Shown: in pieces, positions 3,466 to 63,323 of the stretch
Numbering within the stretch: the first letter of the stretch is position 1
Layout of the letters: every line of letters starts with the position of its first letter
Assembly (NCBI RefSeq): GCF_001640025.1
Contig: NC_031671.1
Span: 2,480,001 to 2,544,000, forward strand
DNA length: 64,000 bases
Origin: Sugiyamaella lignohabitans
Taxonomy: Eukaryota > Ascomycota > Dipodascomycetes > Dipodascales > Trichomonascaceae
Direction: 5' to 3'
The notes under the pieces: generated by a model
The model's database searches: none
Told to the model about the DNA's origin: nothing
Seen by the model: the letters and a program-made list of their open reading frames with translations, nothing else
Position numbers and translations under genes: made by a program

Positions 3466-3650
3466 TATTGTTTATACTTCACAGTGGGCCTGGCTGGGGT
3501 TTCCAACTCCAACTCCAATTCTAACTCCATAACGACTGATGAGATTCTCTGGACAAAATAATGTATATTTATCATTCTCCCTATTTTTTTTTCTATATTT
3601 CAATAATGACTAGATGACTGTACTGTTCCTGGAACTCCTTCTGGGGGTTC

Positions 3651-3705
3651 TGCCTCCGGCGGCTGGGGCTCTGCCCCAGACCCCGTGGCTCGAGCTTCGC
3701 TCGAG
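3651..3705 (+). repeat. GC-rich double-hairpin element, copy 1
   Basis: Head TGCCTCCGGCGG, hairpin 1 with loop TCT, then a shortened second hairpin ending in CTCGAG. Lies 186 bp after the zinc-finger gene stop, head toward the gene. Confidence 0.95.
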
Positions 3706-3794
3706 AACGTGTTTGAGCTGGTTTTGCGAGAACCTAGTGAACCCTCTTCATGTTCACGTCATCGGAAATATCACACCCTGTGGCCCCCCGAAGC

Positions 3795-3855
3795 CGACTC
3801 GAGCGAAGCGAGAGGAGTAACGGGGTCTGGGGCGGAGCCCCAGCCGCCGGAGGCA
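3795..3855 (-). repeat. GC-rich double-hairpin element, copy 2
   Basis: Full-length copy facing copy 1, so the two form an inverted pair with about 90 bp between them. Second hairpin of the CTCGAGCGAAGCGAGAG type. Confidence 0.95.
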
Positions 3856-4262
3856 ACATGCCGGCGACCGATGGTGACGCCAAGTTAGCGATCTCATTCA
3901 TTGCGTCATAGGGCGGCCCGTCTGTTTGAGGGTGGGTGTCGTCTGCTAAGGTTCCTGCATTGTATCTGAATGGGGACTGGCACCTCGACGCCTTGACATT
4001 TCTTCCTGATAAGGTATACAGAGTTTGTAAAATAGGCTTTAGTTAAACTCTGATACATACACAGAGTCCAGGGTCTTGTGCGAAACCTAAAATGCTGACT
4101 AAATAGGTTCCGCACTGGGTTCCGCTGCCAGTGCTTGTCTTAAATTAGAATATAAACTATTCGGCTCCAGCGGTCCCGATCGTGGCAAGCGATCTCTGGT
4201 TACCACCGGCCGAACTTGATATTAATAGTAAAAATAGGGTTCTGTTCGTTGAGGGCGGATGT

Positions 4263-4318
4263 TGCCTCCGGGGTCTGGGGGGAGCCCCAGACCCCGTTTG
4301 TTCCTGCTTCGCAGGAGT
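4263..4318 (+). repeat. GC-rich double-hairpin element, diverged copy 3
   Basis: Head shortened to TGCCTCCGGGG, hairpin 1 altered (CTGGGGGGAGCCCCAG), ACCCCG retained, second hairpin CTGCTTCGCAG. A decayed or variant member. Confidence 0.8.
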
Positions 4319-5317
4319 TGGCTTGGACCGTTGAGTCAGACGGTTGACGTGGGTTTGAGGATGGCTGGTTGTGGAGGTTAATTTTCGTGACAGATGTCAT
4401 GTTTTGTTACTCGTATTAATTGTGTTAGTTCAACGAAGTCAGATGACTAGATCTCCATATATCGCTGCCCCTGCAGCGCTCCAGTTTCTGGTCCTTCAGC
4501 TTGGATATTATTCTTCAACTATCCTCTAGCTAACAGGACCAGACACTGGTAGCATTGACGACTGTACCTTTCGGGAACTATACCATTGTTATGGAAGAAC
4601 CTACCCTACAGAATATCCAAGCTTTTTTTTTAGTTAGTATTTCACATTGCAAATTATATTTCATCTATAATGTAGTTAAATTTCTGTTTTATTTTATCAT
4701 GGGCATTATCATTAATCCAAGCTTATGAGTATAATGTAAAAGCTCTTAATGCAGCAATAAGTTGTTTAAATTCAATAAATCATACACTTTACTATGCCAT
4801 ATCTGCAGAAGTAGGAACATTTGTAATAGTTAATTCAACAGAATATCCATTTCAAGAAAATGTATATCGACAAATATATATTAGATTGTGAAGTAGGTCA
4901 TCTATATTTAGCTTCGTCGAATTGGAACTCCACACACCCCATGAAACATCTTCCTGGGGTGGCTGGGTTAGCAATCCGCAATTGTCGTTCAATGTGTCTT
5001 ACGAATGCTTCACAACCGACGAGAGCAGACAGCCATGTCAGCATTCGATTGAGGAAAGAAACTAGCTATTTATAAATGGTAACCTCGTTAATGTCGTGAA
5101 TACTATCCAAGGATGCTGAGAGTATCTATACACGATTGTCTCTTGTGAAGCAGCAGGAGTGGATATTTAGAAGCAAACTCCAAGCCTCTCGGTCAGTTTG
5201 TTCTCGAGATTATCTTTTGTACAACGGGAGTTCTGACAATTGAAAATCTTGGGATAAAGAACTCTAGATCTTCTGTCGCTTGATTCAGTCATTCAAATGT
5301 TACATTCAAAAGACTCT

Positions 5318-5372
5318 CTCCTGCGAAGCAGGAACTATGGGGTCTGGGGCAGAGCCCCAGCTGCCGGAAGCA
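5318..5372 (-). repeat. GC-rich double-hairpin element, copy 4
   Basis: Second hairpin of the CTCCTGCGAAGCAGG type, head end mutated (CTGCCGGAAGCA). Same orientation as the next copy, a direct tandem pair. Confidence 0.9.
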
Positions 5373-5399
5373 TGGACCTCCCCGCAAGGCTAGAGAAAT

Positions 5400-5454
5400 C
5401 TCCTGCGAAGCAGGAGCCACGGGGTCTGGGGCAGAGCCCCAGCCGCCGGAGGCA
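5400..5454 (-). repeat. GC-rich double-hairpin element, copy 5
   Basis: Second hairpin is the perfect palindrome CTCCTGCGAAGCAGGAG. The head lies 50 bp beyond the SEC21 stop and points toward SEC21, so the copy is in SEC21 sense orientation. Confidence 0.95.
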
Positions 5455-5504
5455 GTCCGAGTCCCAAGAATAGGTAGATAGCATATTATTTCTGTATGTG
5501 GAGA

Positions 5505-8514: not shown

Positions 8515-8575
8515 TGCCTCCGGCGGCTGGGGCTGCGCCCCAGACCCCGCGGCTCCTCTCGCTTCGCTCGAGTCG
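8515..8575 (+). repeat. GC-rich double-hairpin element, copy 6
   Basis: Full-length copy with hairpin-1 loop TGC. It lies 211 bp upstream of the SEC21 ATG, with the head toward that gene. Confidence 0.95.
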
Positions 8576-8886
8576 GGCATGGGGATGGGTGGAAGGGAGG
8601 GGGTGCGGTGGGGGTGTGGAGCGGGCGTGGAGGGAGGGGTGGGATGCGCGGGTTTGGGGGTGGCTGGTGGTGTGAGGAGGGTGCGGGTGCAGGGCCTGGG
8701 ATGGTGCAGTGCAGCTGGCAACAGCGTATTTGACGTACGTGTCAAGCCCCTCACCTGACACCAGCCTCCAATTCGTCGCCAAACTCAACTTCCTCATCAC
8801 ACAATCACCTCTGTCCTCCCTCGTAACACCCCCAGCTCCCACCCCCACGATCTCATCCACCCTCAGCGGCCCCCACCCCCAACGCC

Positions 8887-8947
8887 CGACTCGAGCGCAG
8901 CGAGAGGAGCCGCGGGGTCTGGGGCTGCGCCCCAGCCGCCGGAGGCA
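8887..8947 (-). repeat. GC-rich double-hairpin element, copy 7
   Basis: Full-length copy facing copy 6; second hairpin CTCGAGCGCAGCGAGAG. The two arms are 311 bp apart. Confidence 0.95.
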
Positions 8948-10136: not shown

Positions 10137-10691
10137 ATGAGCTATTATTACACACCTTCACCACCTTCTGCCTCAGGTAGCCTCTCGTATGGTAATGACT
10201 CTATGTCTGTCAACCATACGAGAGTGCCATCATACAACACCACAGCTGCAGGATCAGTGGCTTCATACTCGAGACCAAACTCAGTGTCTCCTCAGTTCAC
10301 CAATGCTTTTCCAGTAAGTGGTTCGTTCTTTGGAGCACAACCCGTTCATCATAACCGATCGTGCAAGCAGAGGTTTAATGCGTCGAGAGGCTTTGAGATG
10401 GAAGACGACATGGAGTTCTGTCCGGCACTTACCAGCGATCGGTCAAGTGCCTCATCGTCGGTTTCTTCGGACTCGTCTGACTATCATCAGGACTACACTA
10501 TCTCTCGCCCTGCCAATCTCGGCTCACCAATCTCGTCTCCAGCAAAGACCAATGCTGTTCTTTCAGCAGCATCAGTGTCTCCTAGCACACCCGCCATCTC
10601 GCGAGTCCGCAAAGCCATTGAGATTGTCGATCCGACCACCGGCCTGAGAGTCTCGTCTCCACCAACACCCTCGGCCGGTTTGAGGAGATGA
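10137..10691 (+). CDS. Ser/Pro-rich protein of unknown function
   Basis: A 184-residue protein with no recognised domain. The N-terminal half is Ser/Tyr/Asn-rich (starts MSYYYTPSPPSASG); an acidic patch EMEDDMEFCP lies near residue 90; then a Ser run. A more conserved-looking block, RKAIEIVDPTTGLRVSSPP, is near the C-terminus, where SPA, SPP and SPS sites could be proline-directed kinase targets. The start is the first ATG after the long leader. Predicted largely disordered. The long 5' region suggests regulated expression (inference). Confidence 0.75.
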   Translation: MSYYYTPSPPSASGSLSYGNDSMSVNHTRVPSYNTTAAGSVASYSRPNSVSPQFTNAFPVSGSFFGAQPVHHNRSCKQRFNASRGFEMEDDMEFCPALTSDRSSASSSVSSDSSDYHQDYTISRPANLGSPISSPAKTNAVLSAASVSPSTPAISRVRKAIEIVDPTTGLRVSSPPTPSAGLRR

Positions 10692-10916
10692 CTGTAGCCC
10701 TCTGCTGCCCGTTACACGATATATGAATGCTCTATTTATTTGGTGGTGAAATGACCTTATGTTATATATCTTATCTATTATTTGTTTGTTAGTACTCGGT
10801 GTTTTGTACTTTTGATTTCCTTTTTGTCTCCCGTTTGTTTTGTCATGACTGTCCATGGACCTTCCGCTCCTACGATTTGTTTATAGCTACAATATACTCT
10901 ATTCTTCTACCCACTC

Positions 10917-10965
10917 TTCGCGGAGCGCAACGGGGTCTGGGGCAGCGCCCCAGCCGCTGGAGGCA
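10917..10965 (-). repeat. GC-rich double-hairpin element, copy 8
   Basis: Second hairpin of the CTTCGCGGAGCG type, head slightly changed (CCGCTGGAGGCA). This is the only nearest-to-stop copy in antisense to its upstream gene. Confidence 0.9.
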
Positions 10966-10983
10966 AACTTCACCCCAGGATCC

Positions 10984-11040
10984 TGCCTCCGGCGGCTGGG
11001 GCGCTGCCCCAGACCCCGTTGTGCTCCGCTTCGCAGAGCG
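10984..11040 (+). repeat. GC-rich double-hairpin element, copy 9
   Basis: Hairpin-1 loop GCT; second hairpin CTCCGCTTCGCAGAG with one mismatch. Its head is 18 bp from the head of copy 8. Confidence 0.95.
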
Positions 11041-24454: not shown

Positions 24455-25090
24455 ATCGCCGCCATATAACACCACTATTAGTTCAAAAAAATAAAATTAT
24501 ACTGCCCTGAAAGATTTCTGGCAAGTCGGGGTGGTCAGTCGTTGCCTCTGACAAAATAGGGCCAAGTGGAGCTGCTTCCGGACAAGCATTTGTCACCATT
24601 GCCTACCCAGTCCATTCTTCGCTATAAAACTGCTCACACACTTCATATATCCACTCTTATTCCATATATATCATAGCTCATAAATCGATTCAAATAACAT
24701 CAACCCGCTCTACTCTTCTCCAGAGCTTCTGGGCCGCTACTTTGCCTCCGGCGGCTGGGGCTCCGCCCCAGACCCCGCTGCTCCTCTCGCTGCGCTCGAG
24801 TCGGTTCGGGGGTCTTAATTGGCTCCAGGTCTATCTCCTGGCCCCGAAAATGCCATTAGCTGGATACTGAGTGGCTTGGAGTACTCCTCTCCAATTCGGG
24901 TCATCTCTGACAATTGACCTCTAATCGCCTTAGTTAACACTTTCGTTACACGATACGTTAACATATTAGCCATAATAACTGACTCACTTTATCCGTATTC
25001 AGAAGCGATCTGATAAACTCCCACAATGTGTTACAACTTCGCTCATCCCTAAAAAAAATCTCAAAATATAAATCATCACTCATAAATTCA
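24455..25090. other. intergenic region between convergent P450 and Rsm1-like genes
   Basis: Contains one GC element; otherwise no gene recognised. A TATATATCATAG stretch near 24665 is seen. Confidence 0.45.
24743..24803 (+). repeat. GC-rich double-hairpin element, copy 10
   Basis: Full-length solitary copy with hairpin-1 loop TCC. It lies 288 bp after the P450 stop, in sense orientation, the longest such spacing in the window. Confidence 0.95.
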
Positions 25091-26292: not shown

Positions 26293-26353
26293 TGCCTCCG
26301 GCGGCTGGGGCTTCGCCCCAGACCCCACAGCTCCTCTCGCTGCGCTCGAGTCG
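26293..26353 (+). repeat. GC-rich double-hairpin element, copy 11
   Basis: Full-length copy with hairpin-1 loop TTC and spacer ACCCCA. Its head lies 33 bp upstream of the Rsm1-like ATG. Confidence 0.95.
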
Positions 26354-26499
26354 GGCGTCTACGGGCCCCATCAGCTGAAATAAACAGGTCAATCTTGGAT
26401 TTATCACCTGTTTTCAACCTGTAATTCATCCCAGGGGTAAATTTTCCCCTTGAAACCCCCTTCCATCCCCCACCCAAGAGCTCCTGGACCCTGGACGCC

Positions 26500-26560
26500 C
26501 GACTCGAACGCAGCGAGAGGAGCCGTGGGGTCTGGGGCGAAGCCCCAGCCGCCGGAGGCA
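26500..26560 (-). repeat. GC-rich double-hairpin element, copy 12
   Basis: Full-length copy facing copy 11, with a matching TTC/GAA hairpin-1 loop and matching spacer variant (TGGGGT), so the two arms are near-identical inverted repeats 146 bp apart. Confidence 0.95.
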
Positions 26561-30117: not shown

Positions 30118-30178
30118 TGCCTCCGGCGGCTGGGGCTGCGCCCCAGACCCCGCTGCTCCTCTCGCTTCGCTCGAGTCG
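30118..30178 (+). repeat. GC-rich double-hairpin element, copy 14
   Basis: Full-length copy with loop TGC. It lies 94 bp after the wall-protein stop, in sense orientation. Confidence 0.95.
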
Positions 30179-30198
30179 GGCGAGGGGGTCCCAACAGC

Positions 30199-30250
30199 GC
30201 TCGCGAAGCGAGCACAACCAGGTCTGGGCGGAGCCCAGCCGCCGGAGGCA
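30199..30250 (-). repeat. GC-rich double-hairpin element, copy 15
   Basis: Second hairpin is GCTCGCGAAGCGAGC. Hairpin 1 is one base pair shorter on both arms (CTGGGC-GGA-GCCCAG), a symmetrical loss that keeps the stem. It faces copy 14 at 20 bp spacing. Confidence 0.92.
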
Positions 30251-31105
30251 CGTGGGCCGTCAAGTGTATCGCGGGGTCAGATGGTAGTGCTAACGTTTTT
30301 GTTCAGCTACGGCCATATCCAGAGTAAAATAAGATTTCCCGTCCGATCAATCATATTCAAGCCTCTGAGAGCCTTGATCAGTAATGCCGTGGGAGACCAG
30401 GCGTGAACAGAAGGTGCTGTAGTTTTTTTGCATCTCCCCTGGCTGCCAACCAAAATCTGTTTGTTTTTTTTTCGGCTCGGAACAAATCTAAGGTTACTCC
30501 TAGTTGGAAATGTTGGTAACCCGTTTATTTTTTACTCGTGAGACAGGAAGGTCGAGGATCTGGAAATTCGAGCTATGAGGTTCCTGATTTACATGCACAT
30601 GTTCGTCAGATACAGATACTGGCTGTAGAAAATGGTGGATAGGTAGCAACACAAAACTCATCAAACAACTGAGCCTGTTTAAACAAGAAGAAGCAAAACA
30701 AAAGAGAGTTGAGTAGAAAGAGTTAAATAATAAATAAAAATATATTCAGATTGTAATTCGATTAGGGCCAGAGGTCTGATGCACACGTGACTACACAGTA
30801 CCAATGCTCTGGAAGAAAGTGGACTAAAAATGCCAATTTCAACGAAAAAAATGCAACTGGTCTGCAAAACAGAGAAGAAGAAACTCAAATAATGGTAAAA
30901 AGCAGCTGATAATATAAAAAGAGGGTCTTTATTGGCAGAGTCGATTGAATGAATGTGAACCTGTCTCGAACCTGGTAACCTCAGCCCTAGCCCTAGGCGA
31001 TTGACTGAAAATTTCACTTCGCGAAGTACATGTAGATTCGAGCTTTTAACAGATCAGAACTGCTAGTCAGCATACAACAAAACACACAGCTGGCATACAT
31101 TCACA

Positions 31106-31696: not shown

Positions 31697-32211
31697 ACTC
31701 CCTTCACCCCCAAATAGCATCTCCTCTAATGTACATATTTCCTACGAACTCTTTACACCATACTGGAGGGTGTGCCTCCGGCGGCTGGGGCTTTGCCCCA
31801 GACCCCGTTGCTCCTCTCGCTTCGCTCGAGTCGAGCTTCGAGTCTCCAGCTCTTTGTAATTGGAGACCAAAACCAAGGTCCATGGGTTACTTAGCTTCCT
31901 GTAGTCTCTGAAGCAATAGGCCTGTTTCGCTCCCACCAGTAGATCCACAGGCGGGCGGCATAAAAGCTCGCTTACTGTCTTACAAATTCCACAAAGAAAC
32001 CAAGCGGTTATAGCACCAAGAGCTGAGAAAACTAAGATTAAAGGGGTTTATACATAAATGAGCTAAACTAGCGACTTCGCAAGGGGAAAAACCAGGGGTG
32101 ACTAAAGAGCCGCATAAGCCGCACGTAGATGATTTCAAGATCTCATCTCATGTTGCAAGTTCTAGAATCCACATTGAACACCACAGTCTCACAAATAATC
32201 ATAAACCAGTC
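31697..32211. other. intergenic region, MRPL36 to DIB1
   Basis: One GC element near the MRPL36 end. The rest shows no gene. The DIB1 frame is open upstream to 32098 but without an ATG before 32212. Confidence 0.45.
31773..31833 (+). repeat. GC-rich double-hairpin element, copy 16
   Basis: Full-length solitary copy with loop TTT. It lies 76 bp after the MRPL36 stop, in sense orientation. Confidence 0.95.
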
Positions 32212-32740: not shown

Positions 32741-32796
32741 TGCCTCCGGCGGCTGGGGCGCTGCCCCAGACCCCGTTGTGCTCCGCTTCGCGGAGC
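32741..32796 (+). repeat. GC-rich double-hairpin element, copy 17
   Basis: Hairpin-1 loop GCT; second hairpin the perfect CTCCGCTTCGCGGAG. It lies 97 bp after the DIB1 stop, in sense orientation. Confidence 0.95.
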
Positions 32797-32815
32797 TCCT
32801 GGGACTGTCGACGCC

Positions 32816-32876
32816 CGACTCGAGCGTAGCGAGAGGAGCCACGGGGTCTGGGGCGGAGCCCCAGCCGTAGGAGGCA
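32816..32876 (-). repeat. GC-rich double-hairpin element, copy 18
   Basis: Faces copy 17 at 19 bp spacing. The head has a small change (CCGTAGGAGGCA). The two arms have different second hairpins, so the pair is not a simple fold-back duplicate. Confidence 0.95.
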
Positions 32877-33751: not shown

Positions 33752-33813
33752 CGACTCGAGCGAAGCGAGAGGAGCAACCAGGGTCTGGGGCGGAGCCCCA
33801 GCCGCCGGAGGCA
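33752..33813 (-). repeat. GC-rich double-hairpin element, copy 19
   Basis: Full-length solitary copy (an extra base in AACCAGGGTCTGG). It lies about 850 bp upstream of the aminotransferase ATG, not near any stop codon. Confidence 0.93.
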
Positions 33814-35927: not shown

Positions 35928-35980
35928 TGCCTCCGGCGGCTGGGGCTTTGCCCCAGACCCCGTGGCTCCGCTTCGCGGAG
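35928..35980 (+). repeat. GC-rich double-hairpin element, copy 20
   Basis: Loop TTT, second hairpin CTCCGCTTCGCGGAG. It begins 36 bp after the aminotransferase stop, in sense orientation. Confidence 0.95.
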
Positions 35981-36001
35981 GGCTCGTAAGGGTCTGGTGA
36001 C

Positions 36002-36054
36002 TGCCTCCGGCGGCTGGGGCTCCGCCCCAGACCCCGTAGCTCCGCTTCGCGGAG
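36002..36054 (+). repeat. GC-rich double-hairpin element, copy 21
   Basis: Loop TCC, second hairpin CTCCGCTTCGCGGAG. A direct tandem copy of the previous element at 21 bp spacing. Confidence 0.95.
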
Positions 36055-36093
36055 AACTCAAACTAGTTTCTGTGTTACAGAGACCCTCCACGC

Positions 36094-36146
36094 CTCCGCG
36101 AAGCGGAGCCACGGGGTCTGGGGCGGAGCCCCAGCCGCCGGAGGCA
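36094..36146 (-). repeat. GC-rich double-hairpin element, copy 22
   Basis: Same subtype as copies 20 and 21, inverted. Its head lies 51 bp beyond the WD40 stop and points toward that gene. Confidence 0.95.
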
Positions 36147-36197: not shown

Positions 36198-38006
36198 TCA
36201 TCGAATCGTGAAGGAGGGGAACGTGCGACGCGAGCGACTGTCGATTTTCCAGAGCCCGATGCCGCTGCCCGTGCCGACGGCGATGGTGCCGCCGTCGAAA
36301 GCGGTCCAGGAGATTCCCGACAGGCCGTATTCGGACTGCTGGGCCGTGAGTCGTGAGAATTGCGAGTGCTGGTGCTGGCTGACCAGGTCGCGGTACGATT
36401 GGATGGTCGGCGACGACAGTGGTGGGTGCACTGACGACGACCGGTGGTGTCGATGACGTCCGGGAATATATACACCGGGAATTGGAACTGTTGAGAGACT
36501 TGCAACTGGTCGTGGTAGCGATGTTGATGACGAGGGACCGGGGTTCGACGTGCCAGATAACATTCCCATACGTACAGGAGACGTGAACGAGGGCTCGTCG
36601 TCATCATCCATATCCTCGTCTTCGTCTTCTCCAGCAGACTCGGCAGCATCGTCATCGTATGACATCTCATTCGTGGTTGAGGTCTCGGTATAATTCGAAC
36701 ATGAGAAATTCGACGGAACGGTCAAGACCTGTCTGTTCTCGAAATCCCGTAAATCAATAATATGTACTCGTTCCATCTGCTCGCTTAAAAACATTAGATC
36801 CTCGGGTCCGTTGGAAAACTTCAGACACCGGAATGCTCCCATGAGTTCATTGGGCCGGGCTGATTTGATCTTGGTCAACGGCACTTTCAAGTTCCGGATA
36901 TCGTATAATCTTGCCATTCCGTCTTGAAACGCAGCGCCAAACATCATTCCTGACGAATGGAATGCCACAGAGAATCCTAGATCCGAACCTGAATCAAATG
37001 ATTTGCTGACCTGCCATCCTCGTTCCTGTGGATTACACACAGTTAACAATGCAGTATCTCCACATGCTACAACAGTTTTCTTATCGGGAGATATCGTGGC
37101 GTGGTTTAATGGCGCCGTCAGTTGAAGCGACTCGGTTGTGGCCCATCGGTGGCCCTCGATATCCAGAAAATAGAGCGACCGGTCGTTGTTGCACACCAGA
37201 GCGCTCAATGCAGAAGTGGTTCCCTCACTGTACAGGGCCACCGAATTATTTATACACTCACCAAGCTTTTGAGTCAGTTTTTCGCCTGTGGATCTGTTAT
37301 GAATGGAAAACAGTCCTTCTTGTGACCTCGATGGCGGCGTGGGTTCCGCTACTCCACCCGCTGCTACGATTCCTTCATTCGACTGGATACATCTGGGCTC
37401 GAAGTCAAACTCCGCAACTGTAGAATCTTTACCAGTAGCAAGGTCAAGACTCCGGATCACTCGATCACACGGATATAGGATCTCGTGGTTAATTCTCGGG
37501 TTCACACACAACAGGTCTCGCAACTGCCAATGTCTTTAATCTGTTAGTCTGGTCCTGGGGTATTGGGTGTGGGGGCATGCCTCCGGCGGCTGGGGCTCTG
37601 CCCCAGACCCCGTGGCTCCTCTCGCTTCGCTCGAGTCGTTACGAGGGGGCCCCAGCATGACTGGGAAAGCTTCCAAACTCTTAAACGTAACACTTACTTG
37701 ATGGTGATATGGGCTGGGTAATGTCGACACTTCTGCCCGATAAGTGGGCGAAGCGGCCGAACCCCTGTACCGCCCGTCGAAAAGAGGCTATACGAGTTAG
37801 CTTTCTATTTCTCATGTCATCTCTCATGTCGTCTCCTTCATCTCATTTCTTTCCATCAGAATCATATTCTTCTTCTTCTTCTTCTTCTTCATCTACTTCT
37901 CTTCTTCATCTTCTTCTCTTCTTCTTATTCCTTCTTTTCTTTGCTAGAAATACTATCCTACCACTAATTTCCAAACTTACCTGGGCCCGTGACTATCTAT
38001 GGTCAT
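36198..38006 (-). CDS. WD40-repeat protein, three exons (Gid11/DUF2415-like?)
   Basis: I reconstruct three exons: 37981-38006, 37698-37764 and 36198-37523. Total coding length is 1419 nt, giving 472 residues with all phases consistent. Exon 1 gives MTIDSHGP and its donor is GTAAGT. Exon 2 follows a CAG acceptor and reads GSAASPTYRAEVSTLPSPYH, ending in HQ before a second GTAAGT donor. Exon 3 begins LRDLLCVNPRINHEILYP after a GACTAAC branch site and a GGCAG acceptor. WD-like blades fill residues about 30-300 (for example DLMFLSEQMERVHIIDLRDF). An acidic, Ser/Pro-rich insert follows (AESAGEDEDEDMDDDDEPSF), then a last blade (SGISWTAFDGGTIAVGTG). The blade with VHIIDLRDF recalls DUF2415 proteins such as yeast Gid11/YLR149C, a GID ubiquitin-ligase receptor; that link is inference. 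The large exon alone has no ATG start, which supports the splicing model. Confidence 0.82.
37524..37697 (-). other. intron 2 of the WD40 gene, carrying a GC element
   Basis: A 174-nt intron with donor GTAAGTGTT, branch GACTAAC and acceptor GGCAG. A complete GC element lies inside it. Confidence 0.8.
37578..37638 (+). repeat. GC-rich double-hairpin element, copy 23 (intronic)
   Basis: Full-length copy with loop TCT and second hairpin CTCTCGCTTCGCTCGAG. It occupies about a third of WD40 intron 2 and is antisense to the transcript. Confidence 0.95.
37765..37980 (-). other. intron 1 of the WD40 gene
   Basis: A 216-nt intron with donor GTAAGTTTGG, branch AGCTAACTCG and acceptor TACAG. A nearer AG (GTATAG, 9 nt after the branch) would leave the wrong phase. 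Contains a (GAA)n-like microsatellite on the transcribed strand, seen as TTC repeats at 37870-37925. Confidence 0.7.
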
Positions 38007-39034: not shown

Positions 39035-39095
39035 TGCCTCCGGCGGCTGGGGCTGCGCCCCAGACCCCGCTGCTCCTCTCGCTGCGCTCGAGTCG
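39035..39095 (+). repeat. GC-rich double-hairpin element, copy 24
   Basis: Full-length copy with loop TGC, followed by the linker CGACGGTCCCAGCAACCTC also seen in two other inverted pairs. Confidence 0.95.
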
Positions 39096-39117
39096 TCTCA
39101 TCGACGGTCCCAGCAAC

Positions 39118-39160
39118 CTCCTGCGAAGCAGGAGCCGCGGGGTCTGGGGCGGAGCCCCAG
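39118..39160 (-). repeat. GC-rich double-hairpin element, copy 25, left part (split by LTR element)
   Basis: Second hairpin CTCCTGCGAAGCAGGAG and hairpin 1 up to CCCAG, where the LTR begins. The rest of the copy is at 45323-45339. Together the parts make a normal element. Confidence 0.95.
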
Positions 39161-39810
39161 TGTCACGATTCCGGCTTCCCAATAGCTTATCCGTTATCTT
39201 CCGACCTCTACCGACTACCTCCGCATGTCAGCCGTCTTCCTGCCTCTCTTCAACATCACTCCAAATGCATACTTCTGCATCTCATGTCGTCTTCGCCGAC
39301 TTATCTCTCTATAACTTCTCCTTGATAAGTTTCATGTTGACGCTAATGCCGTCTGCTCCACTTCCTATGTCTCCAGTTTGTCTTGGCTCGTTTCACACTC
39401 GCCTCTCCTTGGTCATTTGATCTATGTTTTGTTTCATCTAATAATTTCGCCTCATTCTCTTTTCTTTATTTTCTTCTCAAAGATTCTTTTCTACTTTTTC
39501 ATCTTGTTCTCAATTATTATATAAAGGGTACTATTTTGCTCTTTCAATTAGTTTTATTCTTTAGATATTAAAACATCTGTTACTAATATTAATCCTTATT
39601 CAAAACCTCCTTCAAGTGCGACTACTCCCAGAACTTAACCGACTTTCATACAACTTTATCTCACAGTAAGTGTATATGAATCTTAAAGGTTAACCTGGTT
39701 ATTCTGATAATTCTTATCTTTAGATAATGGTTTCGCATGCCACATGGATAAAGTATTCCGAATATCTCGGACATGAAACAGCCGTGCATCTTCGGAAGCC
39801 TCACCTGACA
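39161..39810 (+). repeat. left LTR
   Basis: TGTCACGATTCC...CACCTGACA. A TATA-type box TATATAAA is at 39518-39525, a plausible promoter start for the genomic RNA. Confidence 0.95.
39518..39525 (+). promoter_or_regulatory. TATA-like box in the left LTR
   Basis: TATATAAA followed by GGG in the middle of the LTR, consistent with the U3/R boundary lying shortly downstream. Confidence 0.45.
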
Positions 39811-40056
39811 ATCATGTTTTAATATCTCTACTTTATCTTATCTTTTGATAAGGTTATCTTTAGGATGTCCTTGAGCTTGGTAGGGTGCAAATTTTTTTTT
39901 TTGCCCACCCTCCCACCCTCATTCCCAGAGTGTTCGATTTCCCCTATTCATGAATAGGCTGTCTGTTGATAGTCATTTCCCGAGGCAAATCTTCTCCCGT
40001 GAGACTTATCACCTCACACCACTGATCAGTACCCCTGCTAACCATGTTCGACGATT
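39811..40056 (+). other. retrotransposon leader
   Basis: Non-coding leader between the left LTR and the first long gag frame. Contains a TTTTTTTTTT run and C-rich tract near 39890-39930. No obvious tRNA-primed binding site. Confidence 0.5.
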
Positions 40057-42800: not shown

Positions 42801-44697
42801 AAATTGACATTCTACCTGATGCGGCACTGCGCAAAGCTCGTGTTTACCCTTTGAGCCCTCCTCAAGAAGCTCTTGACAGAATATCTAGATTCCTATCTTT
42901 CCAAAGGCTATATTCGACCTTCAACCTCTTCCATCGCGTCTCCTGTCTTCTTTGTACCTAACAAGAATGGTTCGTTTCGTTTACTTGTTGAATACTCCTA
43001 CCGATATTCATTCCCGGTTACCTGATCTCAACTCTTCCTCTTCAACCCAACCTCTTCGGTTACCTATTCTCCTTAGTAACTCTGATGATTCCTTATCTCC
43101 TAATAAGTCGATCATCGCTTCCATCTCTTCTCACGCCCCTTCTCGGTCTCCTTCTCCCACTGAGTTCTCTGCGTTTTCACACCCCTTGACTTCTTACCCC
43201 GAGTTGTCAACCGCTCTTCTCGCTGCCTATAACAGCGCACCCAATCTTCCCCTCACAACTAACCATCACTGGACTACTCATGATCAATTCATTTATTATC
43301 GAGAACGTCTTTTTGTTCCGCCTCATGCTACGACTCTCATCAATGATATTATTCGTCTTTTTCATGACCTTCCGTCCAGCGGACACCTTGGTTACCGCAA
43401 AACCTTTGACCTTCTTTCTCGTTACTTTTATTGGCCCCAGATGACTTCGTCGGTCCATCCCTACGTGAAAAACTGCCATCTCTGTCAGGTTAGCAAACCA
43501 AAAAACCGTCCACCTCTTGGTCAGTTAATCTCTTTACCGATCCCTGAACGCCCTTGGCAATCCCTGTCCATGGATCATATCACCAATCTTCCCACTGGTC
43601 CTAACCAACCCTATGATGCTATCCTTGTTATCGTCTGTCGTCTCACCAAGATGCTTCATCTGATTCGTTGTTCTACCACAGATACTGCATCCTACCTCAT
43701 CGCCCATCTGCAACTGAATATTTTTCGGCTTCATGGTTATCCGGACTTCATCACTTCAGATAATGGTTCTACCTTTAAATCTGACAAGTTCAAAACTTTT
43801 TGTCATAACTCCGGCATCAAGTTACACTTCACTTCTCCTCTTCACCCCGCTGGCAATGGTCAAGTTGAACGCTTCAATCAGTTTGTTTCTAACTACATCA
43901 AGTCGTTCACCTCTGCTACTCCACATTCCTGGTCCACCAACCTTTCAGATGCTGAATTCGCCTTCAATAATTCAGTTTCTTCTGCCACTGGTTTTACTCC
44001 TTTCTACGCCAACTATGGTTTTCATCCTCGCGTTCCTTTCGCCCCTCCTTCAACTCTCCCCCTTACTCCTCGCCATCCTATTGAGTCCTCTCAACACCTT
44101 TCCCGTACCCACCTTACTCTCTCTCGGCACCTTGCTAAAGCTCAGCAGAACTACGCGAAACACTACAACCGCCATCATCTCCAGTATACTTTCAATGTTG
44201 GTGATCTTGTTCTCGTCAGTTCTTCCCGCTTTCAACTCCAAGGTCAACGGAAAACTCTACCTCGTTTTCTCGGTCCCTTTGCTGTCTCCGAAGTTGTTAA
44301 CCCTACTTCTTATCGTCTTCAGCTTCCTCCTACTCTTAAAACCCACGATGTTTTTCACATTTCTCACTTGTCCCCTTATCATTCACTTCACGATCCTTCC
44401 ATCAACATCCTTCATCTCACTGTTGGTGACTTCTCGTTTCCTATCGACAAGATCGTGGATCATCACATCCAACCCGACCAACTTTACTTCCTCGTTCGTT
44501 TCAAATACGCCACCACTCGGGCTCACAAACATGAACATTGGATTCCCCTTTCCAGCTTTGGTCGAGACCACTACCCTCTCCTTCGCGCTTATGCTTCCAA
44601 GTGTCGTTCTCCAGAGTCTACCACTCTTCTCTCGCGACTCGCTACGCTCGTCGCTTCGGAGGGAGGAGATACTGTCACGATTCCGGCTTCCCAATAG
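42798..44697 (+). pseudogene. pol remnant: RT stub joined to integrase and chromodomain
   Basis: The first 170 bp encode the start of reverse transcriptase in two frames (RVYPLSPPQEALD, then YLSKGYIRPSTSSIASPVFF and GSFRLLVEY). At about 42975-42995 the sequence jumps to the end of the RNase H/connection region (NTPTDIHSRLPDLN). The catalytic RT core and RNase H are absent. Integrase is intact: an HHCC zinc module (HLGYRKT to NCHLCQ), the D,D,E residues in SMDHITN, TSDNGST and GQVERFNQF, and a C-terminal chromodomain-like segment (EHWIPLSSFGRD). Confidence 0.9.
44658..44672 (+). other. polypurine tract
   Basis: GGAGGGAGGAGATAC directly precedes the right LTR and would prime plus-strand synthesis. 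Confidence 0.7.
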
Positions 44698-45322
44698 CTT
44701 ATCCGTTATCTTCCGACCTCTACCGACTACCTCCGCATGTCAGCCGTCTTCCTGCCTCTCTTCAACATCACTCCAAATGCATACTTCTGCATCTCATGTC
44801 GTCTTCGCCGACTTATCTCTCTATAACTTCTCCTTGATAAGTTTCATGTTGACGCTAATGCCGTCTGCTCCACTTCCTATGTCTCCAGTTTGTCTTGGCT
44901 CGTTTCACACTCGCCTCTCCTTGGTCATTTGATCTATGTTTTGTTTCATCTAATAATTTCGCCTCATTCTCTTTTCTTTATTTTCTTCTCAAAGATTCTT
45001 TTCTACTTTTTCATCTTGTTCTCAATTATTATATAAAGGGTACTATTTTGCTCTTTCAATTAGTTTTATTCTTTAGATATTAAAACATCTGTTACTAATA
45101 TTAATCCTTATTCAAAACCTCCTTCAAGTGCGACTACTCCCAGAACTTAACCGACTTTCATACAACTTTATCTCACAGTAAGTGTATATGAATCTTAAAG
45201 GTTAACCTGGTTATTCTGATAATTCTTATCTTTAGATAATGGTTTCGCATGCCACATGGATAAAGTATTCCGAATATCTCGGACATGAAACAGCCGTGCA
45301 TCTTCGGAAGCCTCACCTGACA
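44673..45322 (+). repeat. right LTR
   Basis: 650 bp, aligned by eye with the left LTR without a difference. Confidence 0.95.
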
Positions 45323-45339
45323 CCCAGCCGCCGGAGGCA
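45323..45339 (-). repeat. GC-rich double-hairpin element, copy 25, right part
   Basis: CCCAGCCGCCGGAGGCA: the duplicated CCCAG plus the head of the element that begins at 39118. Confidence 0.93.
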
Positions 45340-50899: not shown

Positions 50900-50960
50900 T
50901 GCCTCCGGCGGCTGGGGCTCTGCCCCAGACCCCGTGGCTCCTCTCGCTCCGCTCGAGTCG
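50900..50960 (+). repeat. GC-rich double-hairpin element, copy 26
   Basis: Full-length copy with loop TCT. It lies 113 bp after the zinc-finger gene stop, in sense orientation. Confidence 0.95.
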
Positions 50961-50982
50961 TGACGTCCACGGTCCCAGCAGC

Positions 50983-51037
50983 CTCCTGCGAAGCAGGAGC
51001 CACGGGGTCTGGGGCAGAGCCCCAGCCGCCGGAGGCA
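50983..51037 (-). repeat. GC-rich double-hairpin element, copy 27
   Basis: Second hairpin CTCCTGCGAAGCAGGAG. Its head lies 52 bp beyond the MAP kinase stop, toward that gene. It is joined to copy 26 by a 22-bp linker. Confidence 0.95.
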
Positions 51038-53188: not shown

Positions 53189-53242
53189 TGCCTCCGGCGG
53201 CTGGGGCGCTGCCCCAGACCCCGTTGTGCTCGCTTCGCGAGC
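53189..53242 (+). repeat. GC-rich double-hairpin element, copy 28
   Basis: Loop GCT; second hairpin the perfect GCTCGCTTCGCGAGC. Solitary, far from any stop codon. Confidence 0.95.
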
Positions 53243-53811
53243 CAGTGAGGGGGCACGCAGGCTTTTTCGTGAAGTTTATCTCTGTGATTTCTTGTTTGAC
53301 GACATCTGAAGTGTCAATGGTTAGCATATGTACACATCTTCCTGCTTGGGTCGATGGAGTGCCTCATATCAATAAATTAATAAATTAATTATTTGATAAG
53401 TAATAGAAATCAAGGACGATGGCTCAGCGCCAAGCAGGTGTCCTATAGCTAGCTATAATTATACCTATATATAGTTATATCCATACATAGACATGTAATT
53501 CAATTGGCAAACTGTCACCCCTGCATTCTGGTAGGAAACACAGCACTGTCAGAGCCATATGTTTTAGACAATAATTCGGCAAGGCCCTGGGCAGATTTAT
53601 AACCAGGCATCTCGGGGCTCCTCGACAGTCGAGCCTGCAGGCCAGCAGCCAACCTGTTACAACTCCAGTGGGCCATTCTGCATCGCAGCTCCCATCTGGC
53701 AGTTGATACGAGACACAACCTGCCTGCCCAAGCATCCCGACTAAAATCAATCTTCAGGATCCTCTATAGTATCCCATCGCCACATCCCAAACTAACTGGG
53801 ACCCCAGGTTT

Positions 53812-53872
53812 CGACTCGAGCGAAGCGAGAGGAGCCGTGGGGTCTGGGGCGAAGCCCCAGCCGCCGGAGGCA
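53812..53872 (-). repeat. GC-rich double-hairpin element, copy 29
   Basis: Full-length copy with loop TTC. Its head lies 70 bp beyond the RPL30 stop, in sense orientation. Confidence 0.95.
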
Positions 53873-55737: not shown

Positions 55738-56389
55738 AAAGGATTATATAAATTAACATAATATAAACCAACTTGTAATGTAACGGCTCATGTTTTCAGT
55801 TCTGTTCTCGTTTTGTGGGGTTTGCCTCCGGCGGCTGGGGCTCTGCCCCAGACCCCGTGGCTCCTCTCGCTGCGCTCGAGTCGGTGCTAGGGGTTGTCAG
55901 CTGGGATTCTGGTTGCGCTTGCGAAGTGTGAAGCTGATTTTCACAGGAAGCTCCAGTCGGCAGTTTGATATAATCCATCACGTGATAGCGATTCTGTACA
56001 TGTGTGAGAGCGTCGTCCAAGATTCGACTTTTCAACAGTCTGAAAATTCTAAAATCCCAGATAATTGTCGGGGAGATAGAGCTATATCAATTTAGCAACT
56101 GTGTTCCAATTTGAAGTGACTTATATTACATATTTTGGAGTAGAATCGCGACACTGAAATTCAGACCTTGTCCCAGGTTAGGGTCAGCCGTACAGTGGAA
56201 AATCAGCCAATGAATGAAAACGATTGAAAATCATCGTGCACTATCGTGTAGTAGGACAATAGAGAGTGTGTGCTGAGACGGGTTTTGTCAGTTGACAGAG
56301 GCAATTCTATTCCACTAATCCACTATTGCTTATCGCTTTTGAGCAAGGTCTCCGAATAGTGATCAATTATACACATAAAACGCGAAAAT
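55738..56389. other. intergenic region, RPL24 to NUXM
   Basis: One GC element; otherwise no feature seen. Presumed NUXM promoter at the right end. Confidence 0.45.
55823..55883 (+). repeat. GC-rich double-hairpin element, copy 30
   Basis: Full-length solitary copy with loop TCT. It lies 85 bp after the RPL24 stop, in sense orientation. Confidence 0.95.
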
Positions 56390-59570: not shown

Positions 59571-59654
59571 GCCATGCATTCGCCAGATTGCTGTCTCGAC
59601 AGCTCTCTGATCACATAAACCCAGAACCATGTACATTATTTTTGAACGGGCAAA

Positions 59655-59715
59655 TGCCTCCGGCGGCTGGGGCTCTGCCCCAGACCCCGTTGCTCCTCTC
59701 GCTACGCTCGAGTCG
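59655..59715 (+). repeat. GC-rich double-hairpin element, copy 31
   Basis: Full-length copy with loop TCT and second hairpin CTCTCGCTACGCTCGAG. It lies 84 bp after the GNA1 stop, in sense orientation. Confidence 0.95.
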
Positions 59716-59821
59716 TTACGTCGGGGTCCCTTCGCTGTTGTCGGGACGGACTCAGATGCCTGTGAAACGGGATTCTCCAGGTCCCAGGAGGTCCCCAGAG
59801 CGGCCTGGCCCGCCCACGCAA

Positions 59822-59882
59822 CGACTCGAGCGCAGCGAGAGGAGCCACGGGGTCTGGGGCAGAGCCCCAGCCGCCGGAGGCA
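59822..59882 (-). repeat. GC-rich double-hairpin element, copy 32
   Basis: Full-length copy facing copy 31 at 106 bp spacing; second hairpin CTCGAGCGCAGCGAGAG. Confidence 0.95.
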
Positions 59883-60247: not shown

Positions 60248-63100
60248 ATGGCAGATGAAGAGGACTACTCGTCCCTGCCGTTGACAGAGAGAGCTGTCCA
60301 CAAAGTGTGGAAAGTTCGACTGGCTGCGTATGAAGAGACTAAGAAACAGTTTGCCAGCTCCGGTTCAGAGTCAGATGCCTGTTTCAGACCTTTTCTGGAT
60401 AACCCGGCGGTTTATAAAAAGATTGTTACAGATTCCAATGTCGTGGCACAGGAGGCTGGTATCAGTTCGCTGGCTTCTTTCCTAGAGTTCGGTGGCTCAA
60501 ACGCCTGTTTGCGTACTCGAGCTACTACAGTTGCACCTCTGGTGGAGAAGGGTTTATCATCCAGTCGTGCTGGTACCCGTCAATCAGCTACTGATGTGTT
60601 ATTGTGGTATATCGAGCTGGATACCCCAGATCCTGTTATTGAGGAACTGACTCCGTTTTTAACTCATCGAATGCCGAAATTGGTAGCAGCGGTGGTGGCA
60701 GCATTGACTGCTATTTTCAAGAACTTCGGCGCCAAGACTGTGTCTCCAAAGCCTTTAATGAAAGATATTCCTAAACTATTCGCACATGCTGACAAGAATG
60801 TGAGAGCAGAAGCTACTAATTTAGTCGTTGAGCTGTATAAATGGCTTGGCAAAGGTGTATCTGCACTTATACTTCCTGAGCTTAAACCAGTCCAGCAAAA
60901 GGAGCTAGAAGAACTGTTCAGTAAATTCGATGCCAGTGGTGAGACTGTACAGCAAATTCGATTTATCAAGTCACAGAAAGAAGCGATGGAAAGACAACAA
61001 GCTAATGGCATCTCGAATTCTGCTGGCAATGGAGCTACTGATGGGTTAGATAGTATGGAAGACGATAGTGTAGATCCACTTGATCTTGTAGATGCAGTCA
61101 GTATCCTGCCGAAAGTATCACCCAACTTGGCTGAACAAATGGGGTCGACAAAGTGGAAGGACCGTAAAGAGGCGCTTGAAGAACTACTTCCTGTACTTCA
61201 GAGCTCTCCGAAGATTGAAAATGATGATTTCACTGACATGGTGCGATTACTAGCAAAATGTATTCAGAAAGATGCCAATATCCAGGTTGTTGCACTGGCT
61301 GCAAACTGTGTTGAGACACTAGCTAAGGGTCTTCGACAAAATTTCGCCCGATATGAGTCGACAGTTTTAGGCCCTCTTTTGGAGAGAACCAAAGAGAAGA
61401 AAGTTTCCGTGGCCGAGGCTCTTGGTGCAGCTCTTGATGCTGTTTATAAATCCACATCACTTTCATCTGTCCTTGATACGACCCTTGAACATCTCAAGCA
61501 TAAAACACCACAAATCAAGATCGAATCTGCCAAATTTTTAGTGCGGTGTCTGAAAACCACGCCAGTTTCTCCTAATACATCAGAAGTTAAGTCTATGGTT
61601 GAATCAAGCATTAAATTATTGAGTGATACACAGGAACCTGTGCGAACAGGAGGTGCTGAGGTTCTTGGTGTGCTAATGAAGATCACTGGCGAGCGTGCTA
61701 TGAATGCATCACTTGATGGAGTCGATGATATCAAGAAAGCCAAAATTAAGGAGTTTTTTGAGTCTGCCGTGGTTATCGCTAAACCAGCCCAAGCTGCTCC
61801 AGCACCAGCACCAGCTCCTGCACGAGCAGCACCTGGTCAGGCAGCTAATAGACATCCAGGACACCCAGGACACCCTGGAGCTAACAACCCAGCTAAACCA
61901 GCAGCTCGATCTATTCAAGGCATGAGAAGTACTCCAGCAAAACCACCTCCAGCAGCTAGAAGAAGACTGGTGAGTCCTGTCAAGGCACCAGAACTAACTT
62001 CCCAACCTGCTGCCTCATCACTATCATCAGCCAATTCAGCTCCTTTTGACGACCAACCATCAATTCCACCTCCATCAAGTGTACCTCGACCAGGCGGTCT
62101 GACCAACCGGGTGCTCCAATCTCGACAACCAGCATCTAGACCACTTGCCAGTTCAGCATCAAATGCATCGGCCATTCCAGACGCTAGATTAGTCGAACTA
62201 GACCAGTTACGAAGTGAACGAGCTGAGTGGATTCGAGAACGTGAGCAGATGAAATGGAAAGCACAAGAAGATCAAGCCGAGAAAAACAGGTTAATGCAAG
62301 AATTATCGGAAGCTCAACGAAAAGTTGCTGAACATATCGAGAAACAAACCAATGAAACATTAAAGACCAAAAGTCTAGAAACACAACTGACGCGATTACA
62401 TTCTGATCTCGAGACATACCGTGTTCGCAACAATAAATTAGAAGCTGAATTAGAGCGAGTCAAGTCGCTGCTAATGCGCCAGCAACAGCATATGGCCCAA
62501 CCGAGTCCACAATATGCCAATACCGACCAAACAGCAGCACCTACTCCCGGATCTAGCAGCATGCTGCGAAGTTTAAGCACTGGCAAATCCGCAGGAGCAT
62601 CGACACACCGTCGTGGAACCTCGTCTTCACCTAAATCACCAGCTATGACATTGCAATTTGGCCTCGATACAAGATCCTCATCGACATCGTCTACAAACTC
62701 CACATCGTCGATTCGTACCCACAACGCAGCCAATAGCGCGCTGAGGCGGTCTGTGGACTTTAGCAACCTCGGTCTTTCATCAATGCCAGATGACGAGTAC
62801 TACAAAACATTGTCGTCATCGTTCCAGCGACAATTGAATACCGGTCCCGACAAAGAAAACAGTCTTTCCATGTCCGGCTACCGACCACTTCACCGACCAC
62901 CACCAGCAGCTACTGCCATGTCTGAAGACAGCGAAATGACCGAAGCACCACCATCGCCGTCACGAATCCCGGTCTCTTCAGCATCCGCTGCAGCCACCTC
63001 GACCACCACGGGCCCCGAAAACTGGCGCCGAGCCGCCGAGGTCACCTCGGAACTGCGAGCTAGAATCGAGGCCATGCGACGCGCTCGTGCTGTCGTATAG
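60248..63100 (+). CDS. STU2: XMAP215/Dis1-family microtubule polymerase
   Basis: A 950-residue protein with two TOG domains (residues about 1-235 and 285-520), recognisable by HEAT-like blocks such as LTERAVHKVWKVRLAAYEET and MGSTKWKDRKEALEELLPVL. A Pro/Ala-rich, basic linker follows (PAKPPPAARRRLVSPVKAPE), then a coiled coil (residues about 660-745, RSERAEWIREREQMKWKAQE) and a Ser-rich C-terminus. This plan, with two TOG domains and a dimerising coiled coil, is that of Stu2 (888 residues) and Alp14. It speeds microtubule growth at plus ends, kinetochores and spindle poles. The first ATG is 60248; the frame begins six codons earlier at a GTG. Converges with the ETF gene. Confidence 0.95.
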   Translation: MADEEDYSSLPLTERAVHKVWKVRLAAYEETKKQFASSGSESDACFRPFLDNPAVYKKIVTDSNVVAQEAGISSLASFLEFGGSNACLRTRATTVAPLVEKGLSSSRAGTRQSATDVLLWYIELDTPDPVIEELTPFLTHRMPKLVAAVVAALTAIFKNFGAKTVSPKPLMKDIPKLFAHADKNVRAEATNLVVELYKWLGKGVSALILPELKPVQQKELEELFSKFDASGETVQQIRFIKSQKEAMERQQANGISNSAGNGATDGLDSMEDDSVDPLDLVDAVSILPKVSPNLAEQMGSTKWKDRKEALEELLPVLQSSPKIENDDFTDMVRLLAKCIQKDANIQVVALAANCVETLAKGLRQNFARYESTVLGPLLERTKEKKVSVAEALGAALDAVYKSTSLSSVLDTTLEHLKHKTPQIKIESAKFLVRCLKTTPVSPNTSEVKSMVESSIKLLSDTQEPVRTGGAEVLGVLMKITGERAMNASLDGVDDIKKAKIKEFFESAVVIAKPAQAAPAPAPAPARAAPGQAANRHPGHPGHPGANNPAKPAARSIQGMRSTPAKPPPAARRRLVSPVKAPELTSQPAASSLSSANSAPFDDQPSIPPPSSVPRPGGLTNRVLQSRQPASRPLASSASNASAIPDARLVELDQLRSERAEWIREREQMKWKAQEDQAEKNRLMQELSEAQRKVAEHIEKQTNETLKTKSLETQLTRLHSDLETYRVRNNKLEAELERVKSLLMRQQQHMAQPSPQYANTDQTAAPTPGSSSMLRSLSTGKSAGASTHRRGTSSSPKSPAMTLQFGLDTRSSSTSSTNSTSSIRTHNAANSALRRSVDFSNLGLSSMPDDEYYKTLSSSFQRQLNTGPDKENSLSMSGYRPLHRPPPAATAMSEDSEMTEAPPSPSRIPVSSASAAATSTTTGPENWRRAAEVTSELRARIEAMRRARAVV

Positions 63101-63150
63101 TCGTGATCCTGTCTACTCTAACGTTGTTTATGTCCTATTTCTACCCCTGC

Positions 63151-63211
63151 TGCCTCCGGCGGCTGGGGCTCCGCCCCAGACCCCGCTGCTCCTCTCGCTG
63201 CGCTCGAGTCG
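63151..63211 (+). repeat. GC-rich double-hairpin element, copy 33
   Basis: Full-length copy with loop TCC. It lies 50 bp after the STU2 stop, in sense orientation. Confidence 0.95.
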
Positions 63212-63232
63212 TTCCGTCGACGGTCCTGGCAA

Positions 63233-63287
63233 CTCCTGCGAAGCAGGAGCAACGGGGTCTGGGGCGAAGCCCCAGCCGCCGGAGGCA
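63233..63287 (-). repeat. GC-rich double-hairpin element, copy 34
   Basis: Second hairpin CTCCTGCGAAGCAGGAG. Its head lies 36 bp beyond the stop of the ETF gene, toward it. It is joined to copy 33 by a 21-bp linker. Confidence 0.95.
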
Positions 63288-63323
63288 GGTCCTCATAGCA
63301 AGAAACCATGTCACAAAAATATA

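Follow-up and report, generated by a model that had tools for sequence, protein, structure and literature searches.

A REP-like dispersed palindrome, concentrated just past stop codons, in the nuclear genome of the yeast Sugiyamaella lignohabitans

Short palindromes at gene ends are a hallmark of bacteria, and both how they spread and what they do are still debated. The closest described systems are the repetitive extragenic palindromes (REPs), the bacterial interspersed mosaic elements (BIMEs) and the REP doublets forming hairpins (REPINs), which appear in passages of the relevant papers as extragenic hairpins occurring as inverted doublets, singlets and clusters, with spacers less conserved than the arms, and for which roles in termination and mRNA stabilization are named (Bertels and Rainey 2011, PMC3116915; Nunvar 2010, PMC2817692; Di Nocera 2013, PMC3733652; PMC6006769). 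Here we describe an element with these same features in a 64,000-nucleotide stretch of the yeast S. lignohabitans (positions 2,480,001 to 2,544,000 of contig NC_031671.1, C3:2480001-2544000 in our numbering, hereafter the window) and in the rest of its genome. The analysed genome comprised 15.93 Mb in four contigs; a review table gives 16.0 Mb, 4 chromosomes and 6,820 genes for the species (PMC5499181), and the SEC21 protein encoded in the window is 68% identical to that of Blastobotrys adeninivorans and 64% to that of Trichomonascus. No description of the element, or of any eukaryotic REP, was found among the matches listed for open-licence PMC papers.

We defined the element by a core pattern, TGCCTCCGGCGGCTGGGGC-nnn-GCCCCAGACCCC, with the reversed pattern as the control. 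The whole genome holds 3,183 exact copies of the core (1,610 forward and 1,573 reverse) and 6,570 copies at up to three mismatches (3,258 and 3,312 on the two strands); the reversed pattern gave no match in the whole genome, either exactly or at up to three mismatches. With hairpins present at this copy number, the element has the character of a high-copy extragenic hairpin repeat, and we read the yeast as carrying a REP-like dispersed palindrome in its nucleus.

The anatomy of the element was examined in 258 copies from a 314-kb sample made up of three blocks, the window, C1:1.0-1.2 Mb and C2:2.00-2.05 Mb, which together are 2% of the genome. The basic module is a half of about 60-80 bp, and mostly two halves lie tail to tail with their heads outward, either as a tight doublet of about 140 bp or around unique DNA. 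Each half begins with a head, GCCTCCGGCGG (short form TGCCTCCGGCGG), continues with a second hairpin, CTGGGGC-nnn-GCCCCAG, followed by ACCC, and ends in a hairpin-like stretch with several stem types around GC-TNC-GC, a TNC triloop, so that in short form it reads TGCCTCCGGCGG-CTGGGGCnnnGCCCCAG-ACCC and then the third hairpin. Changes in the stem of the second hairpin are compensated, the pairs CTGGGGC/GCCCCAG, CTGGGC/GCCCAG and CCGGGC/GCCCGG occurring in 222, 4 and 4 halves, respectively, with 26 unclassified; the last variant has 95 exact copies genome-wide. The commonest type of third hairpin (type a) has an imperfect stem, and where GCnnnGC is present at that place (247 halves), 242 of the loops are TNC. 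TNC reads as GNA on the opposite strand and, because GNA triloops form exceptionally stable DNA mini-hairpins, these loops hint at a single-stranded DNA stage. Extraordinarily stable short hairpins of this sort are described in the relevant part of PMC10527192.

Among 143 pairs of adjacent copies no more than 520 bp apart, 91 were head-outward ('><'), 27 head to head ('<>'), and 15 and 10 in the same orientation ('>>' and '<<'), and 182 of the 258 copies belong to head-outward inverted pairs. The tight '><' pairs (up to 160 bp) number 55 and mostly span 133-150 bp; wide pairs span 165-900 bp, and the interiors of 33 of 37 are unrelated to anything else in the 314 kb. The other 76 copies are unpaired within 520 bp. 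Pairwise identity among 34 oriented ab-type doublets, one of them a copy split by a long terminal repeat (LTR) retrotransposon, was 94-99% in the arms, 58.5% in the spacer and 36-37% in the outer flanks, which is the inverted-doublet arrangement, arms better conserved than spacer, of the REP family. When folded, the 55 tight doublets gave a mean of -115 kcal/mol, each forming one long hairpin, and the two doublets compared with shuffled sequences gave z values of -10.8 and -14.4. The outer flank is G-rich, with GGGG within 15 nt in 136 of 258 halves, and C-runs accompany 28 of the 55 tight doublets; TTTT was found in the next 15 nt after none of the 55, so that the hairpin plus T-run of an intrinsic terminator is not seen. 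Rfam, at gathering score, matched only a 5S rRNA in the window and not the element itself, and the sub-threshold matches to one doublet, mainly miRNA precursors, reflect the long hairpin.

The architecture would thus work like that of REPs, BIMEs and REPINs, from which the yeast element differs in its nuclear location, its third hairpin and its G-rich flank. It also differs from REPs in having no conserved GTAG/GTGG or CGTC tag: the start of the third hairpin could be located in 228 of the 258 halves examined, and 77 of these have GTRG immediately 5' of it, inside a variable linker, and in the 258 halves we found no CGTC tag beside the hairpins and neither GTRG nor CGTC beside the second hairpin on either strand. 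The linker after ACCC takes a few recurring forms (CCGTG, CTGGTT, CCGCT and CCGTA), which place GTGG or GTAG, the REP tag, before the third hairpin, for example at window 50900-50975. REPINs differ further, in that no Y1 (RAYT-type) transposase was found in the yeast and its singlets are not clearly more decayed. We use the term REP-like because no Y1 enzyme was found and because neither a conserved tag nor singlet decay could be demonstrated.

Three other described repeats share some of these features. We know of no uptake role for the yeast element, and of no relation between mitochondrial GC clusters and stop codons. Terminators formed from inverted pairs of uptake signals resemble the yeast element as short-repeat inverted pairs with hairpins at gene ends (Kingsford 2007, via PMC2267715), but the arms of the yeast element are longer and contain internal hairpins, as far as the cited passage describes the former (PMC2267715). 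Inverted repeats at Saccharomyces cerevisiae poly(A) sites are likewise enriched around yeast gene 3' ends; according to the part of the paper concerned, they are short, AT- or A-tract-rich and not a single family (PMC6420913). The GC clusters of yeast mitochondria, short GC-rich palindromes spread through intergenic DNA, belong to organelle DNA, and the likeness is to their description in the review rather than to their sequence (PMC5499181).

In order to relate the element to genes, we took as gene ends in the 314 kb the stops of open reading frames (ORFs) of at least 130 aa without a core, of which 96 were kept; the core-containing ORFs (3 in the window, 35 in C1 and 2 in C2) were discarded as spurious by assumption. 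The null model came from relocating the elements 300 times within intergenic DNA, each pair of up to 520 bp moving as a unit. A same-strand head lies within 100 bp past the stop of 50 of the 96 ORFs, against 5.4 ± 2.2 expected and a maximum of 13, the blocks contributing 9 of 25 (window), 37 of 55 (C1) and 4 of 16 (C2). Density peaks 25-75 bp past the stop, with a median of 43.5 bp for the 50 heads. The nearest element within 100 bp past the stop is sense in 50 cases and antisense in 2, and one of the antisense elements belongs in sense to a convergent gene; for the 62 ORFs of at least 300 aa, the bins from 0 to 100 bp hold 30 sense and no antisense elements. Start codons have an element within 100 bp in 10 of 96 ORFs (8.1 ± 2.7 expected). 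The original prediction, made on the window alone, had placed the elements just past stop codons with a fixed orientation, and both parts hold in the larger sample: these counts show neither an even split of orientations nor a lack of enrichment, although they come from 2% of the genome and are not a genome-wide tally.

It had also been supposed that random insertion would point half the heads each way, which does not follow: the common unit is the outward-headed inverted pair and, because both of its ends are heads, a neighbouring gene tends to see a head by construction. Symmetry nevertheless fails as the sole cause of the orientation, and we retain it as a partial one, because copies unpaired within 520 bp remain mostly sense at stops: the ratio is 14:2 up to 100 bp away (P = 0.004) and 19:6 up to 300 bp away (P = 0.015). 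The 14 include some extra tandem heads and some halves of pairs that span more than 520 bp, and one of the 2 antisense copies is again sense for the convergent gene. The orientation is therefore partly built in by the doublets, yet not wholly trivial. The asymmetric unit of about 140 bp was also considered as a directional signal, but it shows no clear preference at stops: 14 units in tandem-gene context were 6 ab, 3 ba and 5 of other types, and half types gave P = 0.75.

We interpret the element, with a little more confidence than doubt, as a short palindrome, dispersed through a yeast nuclear genome, that works in the manner of REP/BIME/REPIN, has spread to gene 3' ends and serves there as a transcript boundary. 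Copies would have spread by insertion that favours gene 3' ends, or would have been retained there; the G-rich flank and strong hairpins following the gene end would probably pause RNA polymerase II and mark a symmetric boundary between the transcripts of neighbouring genes. That the element is such a boundary seems probable to us. A tractable eukaryote with thousands of copies that have 30 fixed nucleotides in common with a bacterial repeat would allow tests of passage between domains, of movement without a Y1 transposase and of transcript boundaries for RNA polymerase II.

A number of observations weigh against this interpretation. In structure, the loop of the second hairpin is TNC in only 155 of 232 halves, a perfect third stem of at least 5 bp is present in only 92 of 258, and single halves fold barely better than shuffled sequences (z about -1.9). 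As to decay, perfect cores are found in 51 of 76 singlets and 83 of 110 halves of tight doublets (P = 0.18; mean mismatches 1.55 versus 0.96), and the wide pairs are the best preserved of all (55 of 72 perfect, mean 0.50 mismatches), unlike REPINs. Copies near stops are not significantly better preserved than others: perfect cores number 43 of 53 near stops and 146 of 205 elsewhere (P = 0.08), and in 20 doublets having a single gene-side half, the half farther from the gene was the worse one 6 times and the nearer one twice, with 12 ties (P = 0.29). Start codons likewise have heads pointing at them, 11:0 up to 100 bp away and 23:0 up to 300 bp away (an earlier count on 80 ORFs gave 5:5 at 300-500 bp and 48:14 over all distances). 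The rule is therefore that heads face nearby coding sequence, and stops stand out by density, not by strand, which also fits ill with the rule based on the sense strand of the mRNA that had been proposed. Since 46 of the 96 ORFs lack a sense head in the first 100 bp past the stop, the element is not a general or universal terminator. For tandem genes, the stretch from stop to head has an AT content of 0.54 (n = 13), compared with 0.66 for the first 60 bp in tandem genes without an element (n = 7). Twenty-five elements lie in a GC-rich stretch of 13.4 kb between kept ORFs (C1:1009008-1022433, loci L009-L011). Finally, the Y1 (RAYT) transposase family PF01797 was absent from the yeast in a six-frame search whose positive control responded in 5 of 14 genomes, DDE families not being searched; the accompanying Helitron search of the yeast lacked a responding positive control.

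The 13.4-kb stretch, in the second half of which doublets recur every 390-780 bp or so, is possibly a centromere-like or gene-poor domain. The idea that its elements mark an array of noncoding RNAs was dropped, as Rfam, run on 7 of the 25 loci fetched from C1 and C2, gave a single SNORD24-like snoRNA (L009 3432-3522) outside the stretch. Nor did an association with tRNA genes emerge: searched with bacterial settings, the window gave no tRNA and the 25 loci gave two, both in one locus (L014). Elements are about four times as dense in C1:1.0-1.2 Mb (196 in 200 kb) as in C2:2000001-2050000 (13 in 50 kb).

A closely similar repeat exists in bacteria. An exact scan of GTDB representative genomes with a 33-nt pattern of 30 fixed positions found the 30-nt head in four contigs, three from Desulfovibrionaceae and one from an Acetobacteraceae metagenome-assembled genome (MAG); viral contigs gave no match to the exact head, and plasmids and phages gave no blastn match to one 138-bp doublet. 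A 17-nt sibling pattern occurs 199 times in Solidesulfovibrio, 11 in the Desulfovibrionaceae MAG, 383 in the Acetobacteraceae MAG and 92 in Desulfovibrio UBA6079, with no control match in these four genomes. Including the carriers, it was present in 41 of 79 genomes of the family of Solidesulfovibrio (1 to 199 copies) and in 7 of 120 genomes of the Acetobacteraceae family, only 2 of which exceed two copies (383 and 55), and among 200 genomes of that phylum it was present in 6, five of the six with a single copy. Of the matches of one or two copies in the Acetobacteraceae family, the 5 whose loci were inspected have no hairpin and seem chance-like. High-copy repeats of the form GCCTCCGGCGGC-hairpin-ACCCC were noted in Desulfovibrionaceae and two sampled Acetobacteraceae (genomes G001, G003, G004, G345, G377 and others).

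Of 32 bacterial heads, 28 have GCCTCCGGCGGC, a compensated hairpin and ACCC in succession, with stems CTGGGG/CCCCAG (18), CCGGGG/CCCCGG (6) and CCAGGG/CCCTGG (4), the 5' arm being partly fixed by the search pattern. Among 19 bacterial heads examined, a stop lies ahead of 13, in 11 cases at 1-72 bp, and a start ahead of the other 6; tails face 8 stops and 6 starts. The 13:6 split, on mechanical ORFs, is not significant by itself (P = 0.17), and it is the closeness to stops that matters. In the Acetobacteraceae genome all 8 stretches, which were chosen for their listed pairs and include one locus already counted, are outward-facing doublets with unique spacers, and a T-run follows the doublet at 7 of 8 distinct loci. 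The bacterial repeat looks like a family of bidirectional terminators, for which we found no name. The bacterial and yeast repeats share the GCCTCCGGCGGC head, compensated hairpin and ACCC, heads often just past stops, and outward doublets with unique spacers. The bacterial repeat differs in its purine-rich flank (25 of 32), in the T-run typical of intrinsic terminators after the Acetobacteraceae doublets, in loops that are often GAAA- or GAGA-like, in showing no third TNC hairpin and in reaching at most 383 copies. PF01797 is present in three of the four bacterial head carriers; the notion that heads flank the RAYT gene was abandoned, as no head with up to one mismatch was seen in 6 loci around PF01797.

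The shared head could reflect horizontal acquisition, or convergence on a motif recognized by a protein or by its structure. We favour a common origin because 30 positions are identical and because the gene-end position and the doublets are shared, and do so cautiously because no Y1 transposase was found in the yeast to move the repeat, the flanks differ and the eukaryotic side of the comparison is this one yeast genome. A fuller account, that an ancestor of the yeast took up a REP-like element of Desulfovibrionaceae and Acetobacteraceae by horizontal transfer and that it multiplied to about 6,500 copies while keeping its post-stop, head-first, outward-doublet niche as a strand-symmetric transcript boundary, strikes us as a tentative proposal, short of an even chance. 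If true, it would make this the earliest REPIN-type population known to us in a eukaryote.

A rival model, along the lines of the original prediction, is a signal owned by the host, in which the sense head in the nascent RNA serves processing, termination or mRNA stability and is selected gene by gene. The strong peak at 25-75 bp, the 14:2 sense excess of unpaired copies and the conservation of the arms far above the spacers all suit it, as do T-runs and TA-rich motifs between stop and head in many genes, although these also occur, somewhat farther out, in genes without an element. A lower AT content of the DNA 15-150 bp past the unit, seen in small numbers of tandem genes (0.52, n = 13, versus 0.62 at the corresponding place of genes lacking an element, n = 7; P = 0.014), suits this model and our own interpretation alike. 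It is difficult to reconcile with such a signal that 46 of 96 ORFs lack a near sense head and only 4 of 16 have one in C2, that cores are about as intact far from stops, that 25 elements crowd the 13.4 kb between kept ORFs, that heads face starts, and that neither ab nor ba direction is clearly preferred. A place at or beyond the poly(A) region, as had been suggested, is possible: the T-runs and TA-rich motifs ahead of the heads speak for it, and the 5 of 50 heads that begin within 20 bp past the stop speak against it, as they do against the host signal. Overall, the interpretation first put forward is partly supported, and we consider a host-owned signal unlikely.

We are equally doubtful of an ordinary miniature inverted-repeat transposable element (MITE), with terminal inverted repeats moved by a DDE transposase that prefers nucleosome-poor gene ends, the likeness to bacteria being convergence on GC-rich hairpins. 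Long inverted arms with outward head ends, and thousands of near-identical copies in unrelated flanks, are what a MITE would leave. But direct repeats beside the element (lengths 4-10, offsets 0-15), the mark of a target-site duplication, were not overrepresented in 47 units, most wide pairs (33 of 37) surround DNA seen only once in the sample and not a common interior, many halves (76 of 258) have no partner, and 30 identical head positions in bacteria are improbable by chance. Insertion anywhere between genes, with selection clearing promoters so that copies remain at gene 3' ends, would agree with the density per kb in the window and C1 (80 ORFs), which is highest in convergent intergenic regions (2.9, against 1.5 in tandem and 1.1 in divergent ones), but is very improbable, since elements near starts are no rarer than expected (10 versus 8.1), leaving no purge to yield the nine-fold excess at stops, and the peak at 25-75 bp is narrow.

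The window itself illustrates these arrangements. Of 25 curated gene ends, 17 have an element within 600 bp, 15 of them head-toward and 2 tail-toward, and 8 have none. The 15 head-toward cases at 36-288 bp that had been listed were all recovered, and the counts behind a tally of 15 in 16 hold, but its denominator was incomplete. The gene at 10137, said to be the sole exception, is one, with two halves head to head after it (10910..11039); a second tail-toward case is the NuBaID gene (stop 25091-). Nor are the 15 independent: zinc finger 2 and MAP kinase share a tight doublet between their convergent genes (50900..51037, 138 bp, one long hairpin), as do the convergent STU2 and ETF-beta genes (63151..63287, 137 bp), and the convergent aminotransferase and WD40/DUF2415 genes share a cluster (35928..36146), made up of an extra head at 35928 and a tight doublet at 36002-36146. 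Two further tight doublets are that past the DIB1 stop (32741..32876, 136 bp) and one at 39035..39160, the right head of which is split by an LTR retrotransposon, with the remainder at 45323-45339. The doublet past the stop of the DUF7907 wall protein gene (30118..30252) has a diverged second half with the CTGGGC/GCCCAG stem.

The wide pairs comprise one of 205 bp at 3651..3855, with heads at 3651 (+), which is 185 bp beyond the stop of zinc finger 1, and 3855 (-); an outward-facing pair, both halves of type a, in the interval from SEC21 to the gene at 10137 (8515..8947); one upstream of the NuBaID start (26293..26560); and two beside RPL30 (stop 53943-) and GNA1 (stop 59552+), genes missed by the ORF cut-off that we take to be these from inspection of their translations. 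Of these last two, the pair at 53189..53872 points its head at 53872 toward the RPL30 stop, 70 bp away, and that at 59655..59882 (228 bp) its head at 59655 toward the GNA1 stop, 102 bp away. Past the SEC21 stop (5505) are two halves in the same orientation, minus strand (5317..5454, heads at 5454 and 5372). Single halves lie on the plus strand past the P450 stop at 24454 (24743..24822, tail toward the NuBaID stop), 76 bp past the bL31/MRPL36 stop (31773..31852), at 37578..37657 and 85 bp past the RPL24 stop (55823..55902), and on the minus strand at 33758..33813.

The retrotransposon (39161-45322, with matches to integrase and a Tf2-1-type SH3 domain) is inserted in the hairpin of an element head. 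Its two LTRs, of 650 bp, are identical in all 13 compared 50-base blocks, it is flanked by a 5-bp duplication, CCCAG, and the genome contains 11 copies of a 16-base piece of its LTR end. An array of 53-bp tandem repeats (40392-40974) lies inside the retrotransposon region, and a lone 5S rRNA gene (30305-30425) stands shortly after a doublet.

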